Assembly: GCA_017744315.1 (NCBI GenBank)
Contig: JAGIBN010000003.1
Coordinates: 372,001-436,000 of the forward strand
DNA length: 64,000 nt
Source: Porphyrobacter sp.
GTDB taxonomy: Bacteria > Pseudomonadota > Alphaproteobacteria > Sphingomonadales > Sphingomonadaceae
Direction of reading: 5' to 3'
The position numbers and the translations under genes were made by a program. Below the pieces are notes generated by a model. The model was not told the origin of the DNA, did not search any database, and saw nothing but the letters and a program-made list of their open reading frames with translations. Below are positions 5,801 through 16,615 of this stretch, in pieces. Numbering within the stretch: the first letter of the stretch is position 1; every line of letters starts with the position of its first letter.

Positions 5801-6658
5801 TCATATCGGCCCACTCACGGGCTTGGTGCCAGCTCCGGCTATTCCGGCCTTTGCCCGGCGTTCATTGAACAGCTTAATCACGGCCGCTGCGGTTTCTTCG
5901 ATCGAACGGCGAGTGACGTCAATTACCGGCCACCCATTATCGGCGAACATGCGCCGGGCAAATGCCACTTCGCGCTCGACCCGCTCTTCATCCACATATG
6001 CCGTCTCGGTCTTCTCATTGAGCGAGAGCAGGCGATTGCGGCGGATCTCGACCAATCGACGTGGGGCGGTCGTCAGGCCGACCACCATCGGATGCCGCAG
6101 CTGAAACAGCGACGCGGGCGGCGGACTTTCCACCACAAGCGGGATGTTGGCCACCTTGAAGCCACGGTTGGCGAGGTAGATGCTCGTCGGCGTCTTCGAG
6201 CTGCGCGACACGCCGGCAAGGACGATGTCGGCTTCTTCCCAATCTTCCGACGCGATCCCATCGTCATGGGCGATGGTGAACTGGATCGCGTCGACGCGGG
6301 CGAAATAGGCATCGTCCATCATGTGCTGACGGCCGGGACGACCCTTGGCTTCCTCGCCCAGGCGATCCTCAAGTGCGGCCGTCACCGTATCGAGCGGCGC
6401 GACATGTGGAAGGCCGAGCGCGCGGCACCGTTCTTCCAGCCGCCGGCGCGTATCGTCGTTGACCAGAGTATAGAGCACCAGACCCGGATGCGTGGACAGT
6501 TCCTCGACGATCCGATCGAGATGCTGCATCGAACGCACCATCGGCCAGAAGTGACGGATCACCTCCGCATCGTCGAACTGCGCCAGCGCGGCATTGGTGA
6601 TCATCTCGAGCGTCTCGCCGGTCGAGTCCGAGAGCAGATGAAGATGGAGTAGGGTCAT
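5801..6658 (-). CDS. Pyruvate,water dikinase / PPDK regulatory kinase-pyrophosphorylase (DUF299)
   Basis: [29 protein letters not shown]...[32 protein letters not shown]. Confidence 0.92.
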
Positions 6659-6958
6659 GTGGACAAGTCCCGGCATAAACCACGGGAGGGACCTCCGGAC
6701 AAGTTCGGGACGGGATTCCACCCCCATTACCCGCTGATTCGGCCACGCCTGCTTCAACAGGCTGTGGGATCTATCGACAGGCTGGGGATAGCGTGGAGAA
6801 CCAAACCTTGACGCGGAGCTCTGCGGATTCGCCCCGGTCCCAAACCCTGTTCAACTCGGGATAAATCGGGCAAGGGGCGGCCATCCCCGATATCCACAGG
6901 GCCAACAGAGTCCTGAATCCTATTTAAATCTATATATTTATTGGATTGGACCTCTCGA
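6659..6958. other. Putative chromosomal replication origin region (oriC)
   Basis: Divergent gap between DUF299 gene and hemE; AT-rich tract tatttaaatctatatatttattgga (6921-6945); DnaA-box-like TTGTCCACA (minus, 6658-6666) and ATATCCACA (plus, 6890-6898); coding polarity switches here. Confidence 0.65.
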
Positions 6959-7984
6959 ATGCCTGGCCTTCTGCTCGATACCTTGCGCGGACAATCCGGC
7001 TCCCAGCGGCCGGTTTGGCTCATGCGCCAGGCCGGGCGTTACCTGCCTGAATATCGCGCGTTGAGGGCCGAAAAGGGCGGCTTCCTCGAGCTGGTGAATG
7101 ACAGCGAAGCGGCAGCGGAAGTGACGATACAGCCGATCCGCCGCTTCGGGTTCGACGGGGCGATCCTGTTTTCCGACATTCTCGTGATTCCGCACGCGCT
7201 GGGGCAGAACCTTGCGTTCCTGGCGGGCGAGGGGCCGCACCTCTCGCCGCGGCTGGTCGATGCCACGCTCGCTTCGCTGACCGCAGCGCCGGAGCGGCTC
7301 GACCCGATCTACCGCACCGTTCGGCTGGTGCGGGAGCAGTTGGGACCCGAGACCACCCTGCTAGGCTTCGCAGGAAGCCCGTGGACGGTCGCTACGTACA
7401 TGATCGCGGGTGAAGGTAGCCGGGACCAGCAAGCCTCACGGACTCTCGCTTACAGCGATCCTGAGGCGCTCCAAGCGATCCTCGATGCGATCGTGGTTGC
7501 TAGTGTCGAATACCTGTCCGGTCAGATCGAGGCTGGAGCTGAAGCCGTCCAGTTGTTCGACAGCTGGGCCGGCAGCCTGGCTCCCACAGAGTTCGAGCGC
7601 TGGGTCATCGCGCCCAATGCGGCGATCGTGGCGGAAATCCATCGGCGCCATCCGGGCGTGCCAGTCATTGGTTTTCCCAAGGGTGCCGGTGAAAAATTGC
7701 CGGCTTATGCGCGGGAAACGGGAGTCGACGCTCTTGGGCTCGACGAGACGATCGATCCGCTGTGGGCCGACAAGGTTCTTCCCGCGGGCCTGCCGGTGCA
7801 GGGCAATCTCGATCCGCTGCAATTGTTGGCCGGCGGTGCTGGACTGGAGACCGCGGCAATCCGCGTGCTCGAGGCTTTCGCGGGTCGCCCTCACGTGTTC
7901 AATCTCGGCCACGGGATCGACAAGGAAACACCGATCGCCCACGTCGAACGACTGCTGTCGACCGTCCGCAACTGGAAGGGGTGA
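6959..7984 (+). CDS. hemE: Uroporphyrinogen decarboxylase
   Basis: RPVWLMRQAGRYLPEYRALRAEKGGFLEL... FAGSPWTVATYM. Confidence 0.95.
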   Translation: MPGLLLDTLRGQSGSQRPVWLMRQAGRYLPEYRALRAEKGGFLELVNDSEAAAEVTIQPIRRFGFDGAILFSDILVIPHALGQNLAFLAGEGPHLSPRLVDATLASLTAAPERLDPIYRTVRLVREQLGPETTLLGFAGSPWTVATYMIAGEGSRDQQASRTLAYSDPEALQAILDAIVVASVEYLSGQIEAGAEAVQLFDSWAGSLAPTEFERWVIAPNAAIVAEIHRRHPGVPVIGFPKGAGEKLPAYARETGVDALGLDETIDPLWADKVLPAGLPVQGNLDPLQLLAGGAGLETAAIRVLEAFAGRPHVFNLGHGIDKETPIAHVERLLSTVRNWKG

Positions 7985-12346: not shown

Positions 12347-12362
12347 TGTTTCACGTGAAACA
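12347..12362. promoter_or_regulatory. parS-like centromere site 1 (TGTTTCACGTGAAACA)
   Basis: Perfect 16-bp palindrome matching the broadly conserved ParB-binding sequence; mnmE-mnmG gap. Confidence 0.9.
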
Positions 12363-14266: not shown

Positions 14267-14889
14267 TCGAGGGGGAGGTCGCAGCTCGGGCGTTCTGCGC
14301 AGCGCGTACTGATGCGGCGGGCATGGAGCGCCTGGAAGCGTTCGCACGCCTTTTGGCTGACGAGAACGGTGTCCAGAACCTCGTTTCCAGCGCCAGCCTG
14401 GACGCCATCTGGCAACGCCACTTTGCCGATAGTCTCCAGTTGATCGACTATGTTCCACGTGAAACAGCCGCTTGGCTCGACATGGGAAGCGGCGCGGGCT
14501 TTCCCGGGCTGGTGCTCGCGGCCACTCGACCAGATCTTGAACTAGTCCTGGTCGAATCGCGCAAGCGACGATCCGAGTGGCTTACCCGAGCGTCGCGGGC
14601 GCTGGGCCTGACAAACTGTCGCGTTTTGGGAGCCCGTCTCGAAAACGTGGAGACGTTTCCGGCCGGCGTAATTACAGCACGGGCCTTCGCTCCACTCGGT
14701 AAACTCCTACAGTTGTCAGCCCGGTTTTCCACACGCAACACAGTGTGGCTGTTGCCCAAGGGGCGGTCGGCGGCGCAAGAACTGGAGACACAGCCGCTTC
14801 CGGTGCGAGAAATGTTCCACGTGGAACAGTCGCAGACTGATGAGGGAGGGGGCATCCTAGTGGGACAAGGGACACCGAAAGTCCGATGA
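14263..14889 (+). CDS. rsmG: 16S rRNA (guanine527-N7)-methyltransferase
   Basis: [36 protein letters not shown]. Confidence 0.93.
14451..14466. promoter_or_regulatory. parS-like site 2 (TGTTCCACGTGAAACA), inside rsmG
   Basis: 15 of 16 positions palindrome-consistent with parS. Confidence 0.85.
14813..14828. promoter_or_regulatory. parS-like site 3 (TGTTCCACGTGGAACA), 3' end of rsmG
   Basis: Perfect 16-bp palindrome, parS consensus variant. Confidence 0.88.
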
Positions 14890-15662
14890 TCCGGATCGCG
14901 ATAGCTAACCAGAAGGGCGGGGTAGGCAAGACCACCACCGCCATCAACATTGCTACGGCCATGGCGGCGGCGGGATGGAAGACCCTGCTGGTCGATCTCG
15001 ATCCCCAAGGGAACGCGTCGACAGGGCTCGGCATCGAAGGCGCTCGGCGTGAGCTTTCGAGCTACGATCTCCTGGTCGAGCAAGCGAAAGTCGAGGACTG
15101 CACGGTTCCGACCAGCATTCCCGGCCTCGATGTCGTCCCCGCTACCGTCGATCTGAGCGGCGCTGAGATCGAGCTTGTGACGGTAGAGAACCGCACGGGC
15201 CGCCTCGGCGCTGCCCTGGCGGGCCACACCCAGCACGACGTCTGCTTTATTGATTGCCCGCCATCGCTTGGATTGCTGACGCTGAACGCTTTGACTGCGG
15301 CGGATACCTTGATGGTTCCGCTTCAGTGCGAGTTCTTTGCGCTCGAAGGTCTAAGCCAGCTTCTGACCACGGTTGACCAGGTCCAGCAGCGCTTCAATCC
15401 CAATCTCGGGATCATCGGCATCGTGTTGACGATGTTCGATCGACGTAACCGCCTGACCGATCAAGTTGCCGAAGATGTGCGCGAATGCCTGGGCAAGCTG
15501 GTGTTCGAGGCGGTGATCCCGCGAAACGTTCGTTTGTCCGAGGCACCAAGCCACGGTCTGCCAGCGCTGATTTACGACCAGTCCTGCGCTGGCAGTGTTG
15601 CGTACATGGCGCTGGCGCGTGAGCTTATTGGACGTCTGCCTAAAGAAAGGGTCGCCGCATGA
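14886..15662 (+). CDS. parA: Chromosome partitioning ATPase ParA
   Basis: [26 protein letters not shown]...LVDLDPQGNASTGLG. Confidence 0.95.
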   Translation: MIRIAIANQKGGVGKTTTAINIATAMAAAGWKTLLVDLDPQGNASTGLGIEGARRELSSYDLLVEQAKVEDCTVPTSIPGLDVVPATVDLSGAEIELVTVENRTGRLGAALAGHTQHDVCFIDCPPSLGLLTLNALTAADTLMVPLQCEFFALEGLSQLLTTVDQVQQRFNPNLGIIGIVLTMFDRRNRLTDQVAEDVRECLGKLVFEAVIPRNVRLSEAPSHGLPALIYDQSCAGSVAYMALARELIGRLPKERVAA

Positions 15663-16615
15663 GCGCCGAAGATCGCACCGATTCGCGGACCGCGCCCAAG
15701 CGCGGCCTTGGCCGAGGGTTGAGTGCCCTGATGGGCGAAATGCGCCGCGAGGAACCGCTGGTTTCGCCTGCGCGCGATGGGGCGTCGGGCGTGGAATCGT
15801 CTGCCTCGCCCGAAATGGATTCGTCCGGCCTCGCAAGCCTCCCGGTTGCGGCGATCGAACCTCATCCCGAACAGCCGCGACGCCACTTTGACGAGGCCGC
15901 ACTCGAGGAGCTTTCAACCTCGATCGCCAAGCGTGGTGTGATCCAGCCGGTTATCGTGCGCCCGCTGGCTGGCGGGCGCTATCAGCTCGTGGCCGGCGAA
16001 CGCCGCTGGCGGGCGGCGCAGAAGGCGCAACTCCATGAAATTCCGGCCTTAGTTCGCGATCTCGAAGAGAGCGATGTGATGGCTCTGGCGCTGATCGAGA
16101 ACATTCAGCGCGAAGACCTCAATCCCGTTGAGGAAGCGAGAGGATATCAGCGCCTGGGTGAGCGAGACGACTTGCCGCAGAGCGAGATCGCGCGTCTCGT
16201 CGGCAAGTCGCGCAGCCACGTGGCCAATCTCCAGCGCCTGCTTACGCTTCCGCAGTCCGTCCTCGATCACCTTGAGACCGGACGCCTCGACATGGGTCAC
16301 GCGCGGGCACTCGTCGGGCGCGAGGATGCCGAAGCCCTGGCGCAGCGCGCCGTCGATCAAAAGCTGTCGGTTCGCGAAGTCGAGAAGCTTTCCCGTCGCG
16401 GCGATACCCGCGTGCGGCGTCAGGCAAGGGATTCGCGTGATCCGGCCGGCGATGCGGATATCGTGGCGGTGCAGAACCATCTCGAGGAGTTCCTCGGCCT
16501 GCCAGTAAGAATTGCGGCCGACACCGATCCGCGTTCCGGCGCGGTTACAATCCGTTATCGCACGCTCGATCAGCTCGATCTGATCTGCCAGCGCCTCACT
16601 GGTGGTGGGATCTAG
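15659..16615 (+). CDS. parB: Chromosome partitioning protein ParB
   Basis: KRGLGRGLSALMGE...YQLVAGERRWRAAQKA...IENIQREDLNPVEEARGYQRL. Confidence 0.95.
   Translation: MSAEDRTDSRTAPKRGLGRGLSALMGEMRREEPLVSPARDGASGVESSASPEMDSSGLASLPVAAIEPHPEQPRRHFDEAALEELSTSIAKRGVIQPVIVRPLAGGRYQLVAGERRWRAAQKAQLHEIPALVRDLEESDVMALALIENIQREDLNPVEEARGYQRLGERDDLPQSEIARLVGKSRSHVANLQRLLTLPQSVLDHLETGRLDMGHARALVGREDAEALAQRAVDQKLSVREVEKLSRRGDTRVRRQARDSRDPAGDADIVAVQNHLEEFLGLPVRIAADTDPRSGAVTIRYRTLDQLDLICQRLTGGGI

Follow-up and report, generated by a model that had tools for sequence, protein, structure and literature searches.

The 300-bp divergent intergenic gap between the DUF299 gene and hemE (positions 6659–6958) is, with high confidence, the chromosome origin, oriC, of the Porphyrobacter sp. 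strain from which the window, i.e., the whole 64,000-nucleotide stretch of DNA analysed, was taken. This prediction is based on the position of the gap, the GC skew, the proximity of parS sites, and the conservation of the flanking gene pair. Location, conservation, the AT-rich element, parS, and skew were all observed in the present analysis, and the start point of the chromosome is thereby fixed for this genome, with precise, testable elements. Since a hemE-adjacent origin has already been published for Sphingomonadaceae (PMC4741004), the gap is a new case of a known origin type, a further example that is ordinary for the family. The less expected part of this origin is a putative methylation-type site whose spacing from the start signal is fixed family-wide, and it is this GAKTCG site that merits a specialist's attention.

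Position of the predicted origin in the chromosome

The window corresponds to C11:372001–436000, located on a 590-kb contig of a 3.65-Mb, 17-contig assembly. The gap is flanked on the left by the DUF299/Kinase-PPPase gene (COG1806, RP001 type; 5801–6658, minus strand; PF03618, E 6.5e-94) and on the right by hemE (6959–7984, plus strand; PF01208, E 4.7e-110). According to Pfam, the genes farther to the left, maf, an aroE-type gene (shikimate dehydrogenase), coaE, and a dnaQ-like gene (exonuclease), are all on the minus strand, and hemE is followed on the plus strand by hemJ (UPF0093), rho, mnmE, and mnmG (GidA), in agreement with the orientations given in the earlier note. After mnmG come rsmG-like, parA-like, and parB-like genes, whose names were taken from their sequences only: the putative parA (14886–15662, plus strand) has the start ANQKGGVGKTTTAIN, and the putative parB (15659–16615, plus strand) was named from its position as well.

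The divergent arrangement of DUF299 upstream of hemE was found in 76 of 77 Sphingomonadaceae loci, i.e., in 35/35 of a first set and in 41/42 of a second, named set, the latter being mostly Sphingomonadaceae by title, with a few genomes that may occur in both sets. A class-wide draw of 20 loci showed the same arrangement in 18, but of 33 other loci, which include many with Rhodobacterales titles, only 15 had it. Moreover, inspection by eye of hemE-upstream regions revealed in many of them, across the class, a box, a CTACTAC/CAACAAC-like tract, and AT-rich DNA in the same order. Two class members, L101 and L106, have neither the divergent DUF299 gene nor a box/AT-rich element before hemE, which makes it probable that their origin is located elsewhere. 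Two further records, L145 (titled Bacillus sp. 2B10) and L137 (titled Microvirga sp. SRT01), carry a hemE 66–68% identical to that of the window and a Sphingomonas-type upstream region, and are likely mislabelled or contaminated.

The cumulative GC skew, to which the earlier note had pointed as a check on the origin, has its minimum beside the gap on the contig and near hemE in a closed relative. For the strain itself, the skew was computed on the 590-kb contig alone; the minimum lies at ≈ 1.5 kb in the window (−2364) and is hardly deeper than a second low at 6 kb (−2355), to the right of which the curve climbs. In the closed single-contig relative G517 (2.94 Mb), for which 40 stretches of 20 kb were sampled, interpolation places the minimum at ≈ 1,525,000, within 6 kb of hemE (1,530,571). 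The mean skew of this relative is −0.013 in the left replichore (18 of 21 stretches negative) and +0.013 in the right one (16 of 19 positive), and its skew maximum is ≈ 107 kb off the antipode.

Only three parS-like sites (≤ 2 mismatches) were found in the whole 3.65-Mb assembly, and all of them are 5.4–7.9 kb from the hemE end of the gap: the exact site TGTTTCACGTGAAACA at 12347–12362, a site with one mismatch at 14451–14466, and a site with two mismatches at 14813–14828. The places of parS were listed for 14 single-contig relatives; 13 of these have a parS cluster downstream of hemE at a distance of ≤ 20 kb, and the exception has its parS sites 73–77 kb away from hemE. Note that two relatives, G520 and G337, gave 57 and 21 parS-like matches (≤ 2 mismatches), many of them exact and spread over the chromosome, against 1–9 in each of the other genomes searched.

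It is hardly credible that the origin of this chromosome adjoins dnaA, as in many other bacteria. The single dnaA gene is located on another contig (C12:290264), where a shallow local skew low is indeed found nearby (40 kb examined), but this contig carries no parS-like site with ≤ 2 mismatches, the only box (≤ 1 mismatch) upstream of dnaA lies ≈ 2 kb away with no box cluster, and the skew minimum of G517 is at hemE. The claim of the earlier note that the DUF299–hemE gap is the chromosomal origin thus agrees with the skew and parS data and with the conserved right box and block described below. Skew and parS together fix the origin to a few kilobases, not to the base.

DnaA-box-like words and the predicted unwinding element

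The box-like 9-mers reported earlier, TTGTCCACA (6658–6666, minus strand), which overlaps the DUF299 start codon, and ATATCCACA (6890–6898, plus strand), are both present, as is the TTATCC core at 6858 (minus strand; GGATAA at 6858–6863). Additionally, CTATCCCCA (6783–6791, minus strand) resembles a weak box, its core TGGGGAT being present in 6/6 genus sequences. The conservation expected of these words held for the right, unwinding-proximal box, whose TCCACA is kept in 35/35 of the first family set, and for the following 29-bp block, TCCACAGGGCCAACAGAGTCCT[GA]AATCCT (6893–6921, plus strand), in which 6/6 genus members are invariant except in one column. It did not hold for the left box, TTGTCCACA, which is common to ≈ 8/76 relatives and conserved only in close ones, so that family-wide conservation covers one box only, plus weak ones.

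TTGTCCACA and ATATCCACA (≤ 1 mismatch) form the sole box pair within 300 bp on the 590-kb contig, which has 30 boxes. At the same time, box words are not clearly enriched either in the window (7 against 3.1 expected, a number reached by 6 of 100 shuffles) or genome-wide (181, fewer than the 194 hits of the reversed pattern), and closer pairs occur on other contigs (C1:22594/22660, C2:89475/89563, and C9:290556/290590). The gap itself contains two boxes at one mismatch and weak ones, and close pairs of such words exist elsewhere too. Box density was therefore rejected as a proof of the origin, the words being few, imperfect, and not clearly more frequent than chance would give; DnaA boxes alone would not pick out an origin, and it is their combination and context that do so. 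One of the distant pairs, G000:C1:22594-22668, consists of an exact TTATCCACA and a one-mismatch box 66 bp apart and is possibly the origin of a second replicon.

Both the 300-bp gap and the AT-rich stretch within it were found as the earlier note had described them. This stretch, the predicted duplex-unwinding element, occupies 6921–6945 and has A or T at 22 of 25 positions; 25-mers with at least 22 A/T make up only 0.002% of those on the 590-kb contig. On the plus strand, the segment between the right box and this element is 9% G and 38% C, and in the family as well it is C/A-rich and G-poor.

By analogy with well-studied bacteria, DnaA would bind the box at 6890–6898 together with the weaker left boxes (6783–6791, 6658–6666, and partial ones), then spread over the C/A-rich, G-poor segment and open the AT-rich stretch at 6921–6945, where helicases would be loaded and from which forks would depart both ways. 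ParB bound to the parS sites 5–8 kb away would then segregate the new origins.

It might be argued that the gap is mainly a divergent promoter/leader region of hemE and DUF299, with the true origin elsewhere within the same 20 kb. The gap is indeed divergent and intergenic, a promoter-like TTGAC motif stands 13–14 bp before the conserved GANTC site considered below, and differences of a few kilobases are beyond the resolution of skew and parS. However, no sigma-70 promoter pair was found in the gap, which holds a 25-mer whose AT content is among the highest on the contig; the divergent linkage in the class-wide loci often comes with a DnaA box and an AT-rich tract beside hemE; and the proven Caulobacter origin occupies the same site. 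This makes the promoter/leader explanation very improbable. As for RNA, an Rfam search of the window gave no match, and one weak terminator-like stem was seen, which could arise by chance. A structured RNA, CcnA, is reported at the Caulobacter origin (PMC8959179), but the predicted fold of 6831–6958 is no more stable than its shuffles (z −0.58), so a CcnA-like structured RNA in the gap is unsupported.

GANTC sites at a fixed position before the box

The gap taken as the origin contains five GANTC sites in 300 bp, and contig windows of this size with at least five sites form 12 clusters only, the contig density being 1.87 per kb, lower than the 3.25 that base composition predicts. These sites are located at 6714–6718; at 6736–6740, in a GATTCG context; within the GATTCG at 6826–6831 (plus strand), which represents a conserved GAKTCG of the CcrM/GcrA type 67 bp before TCCACA; at 6908–6912, 15 bp after the start of TCCACA; and 7 bp beyond the latter, at 6915–6919, a site that most genus members and a few other sequences share. 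In the two Sphingomonadaceae sets, the number of GANTC in the 300 bp upstream of hemE averages 5.1 and 4.6, a density ≈ 10-fold that of neighbouring coding DNA (0.4–0.75 per 300 bp). Three Sphingomonas loci (L146, L147, and L160) have 12 GANTC in these 300 bp, far above most relatives.

Spacing was counted in 53 sequences for which a TCCACA close to hemE served as the anchor. A GANTC site was found 65–69 bp before TCCACA in 51 of them, with a chance of 0.9% per five offsets, and 14–16 bp after its start in 36. In the 51 fixed sites, G follows the motif in 49 cases, and the middle position is occupied by G (27) or T (24), never by A or C, with the flanking columns near random. At least nine changes of this middle base were counted on a HemE tree, so the fixed site is not merely part of a frozen block. 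TTGAC or TCGAC stands 13, 14, or 19 bp upstream of the fixed site in 45 of 51 sequences (in the window, TTGAC at 6808–6812, plus strand, 13 bp upstream). Sphingomonas-type sequences outside this group mostly carry GAKTCG on the minus strand, ≈ 150–180 bp before hemE. No paper describing a fixed GANTC site in sphingomonad origins was found among the main texts of open-access articles reached by keyword.

The genome has one ORF with a RAMA domain (CcrM-type, 393 aa) and a GcrA match, and among 14 control genomes the RAMA domain was found in Caulobacter only. A conserved GAKTCG thus occurs together with a putative CcrM-type ORF, so named from its RAMA domain, and with a GcrA match. For Caulobacter, methylated promoters carrying YGAKTCG are the proposed targets of activation by GcrA (PMC7987155). 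We infer, less surely than the origin itself, that the conserved GANTC sites are methylated by a CcrM-like enzyme and act as a GcrA-type promoter element or as an initiation-timing mark. A consensus search of the gap (Caulobacter-type, ≤ 1 mismatch) found neither CtrA sites, full or half, nor an IHF site, so the timing of initiation probably comes from other inputs, methylation being one candidate.

The more specific proposal, that CcrM methylation at the GAKTCG ≈ 67 bp before the box and at the box-proximal GANTC gates initiation in Sphingomonadaceae, or gates a transcript on which initiation depends, is speculative, and we consider it rather unlikely. If it were true, both GANTC sites would become hemimethylated on origin firing and remain hemimethylated until the return of CcrM, which would limit initiation to once per cycle, and methylation gating would serve where the origin has no CtrA sites. 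Alternatively, the gap is the origin but its GANTC sites have no methylation role and arise as by-products of the conservation of the origin, a reading that competes with the methylation part only and that we regard as a real possibility, though short of even probability. GANTC motifs have already been noted in the Caulobacter origin and in close relatives (PMC3973325), depletion or overexpression of CcrM is reported to leave Agrobacterium ori1 unchanged (PMC11514494), and in Porphyrobacter's own genus the near-box sites fall inside an otherwise invariant block, all of which would suit by-products. On the other hand, the site at −67 keeps GA and TC wherever it is found (51/53) amid near-random flanks and in spite of its changing middle base, and the 10-fold GANTC density over coding DNA also speaks against by-products. 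With a GANTC site fixed family-wide and no recognised CtrA sites, this origin offers a direct test of whether methylation times replication in alphaproteobacteria outside the Caulobacter model.

Comparison with known origins and control systems

The proven origin of Caulobacter crescentus, Cori, lies between the same two genes, hemE and COG1806/DUF299, as the earlier note stated and as PMC1914354 bears out; it shares with the gap an AT-rich region and GANTC motifs, and its DnaA boxes, weak ones among them, have box-like counterparts in the gap (PMC1914354, PMC3973325). Five CtrA sites and one IHF site are known in Cori (PMC1914354), and none was found by consensus in the gap; such sites belong to Caulobacter-type control and are not required for membership of the hemE–DUF299 kind of origin. 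At ≈ 300 bp, the gap is shorter than in most class members (median ≈ 450 bp).

For most Sphingomonadaceae, origins are predicted to be adjacent to hemE (PMC4741004), and those of Sphingopyxis granuli TFA and other members of the family in DoriC resemble the gap in location, gene order, and, as predicted from comparison, DnaA boxes and a DUE. TFA belongs to another genus, and the fixed GAKTCG site and its spacing do not appear in the consulted passages of that paper (PMC4741004).

Similar to the basal unwinding system (BUS), the gap has a box, a GC-rich spacer, a strand-biased C/A-rich segment, and then AT-rich DNA. The rule published for BUS calls for at least three contiguous 3′-NAN-5′ DnaA-trios within 16 bp of a DnaA box (PMC8287927), whereas three contiguous trios in the window start 18 bp after the box, narrowly outside this limit, and a strict DnaA-trio assignment was therefore rejected. 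With ≤ 2 box mismatches allowed, 19 of the 77 Sphingomonadaceae loci had a BUS-type arrangement, against 3.2/77 in the shuffled control, as did 10 of the 20 class loci.

The conserved GAKTCG, together with the RAMA-domain ORF and GcrA, resembles GcrA/CcrM-regulated promoters (YGAKTCG), but here the base before GAKTCG is not restricted to C or T, and a recognisable −10 element is absent. In the gating role proposed for them, the GANTC sites would be like the Dam/SeqA system at E. coli oriC.
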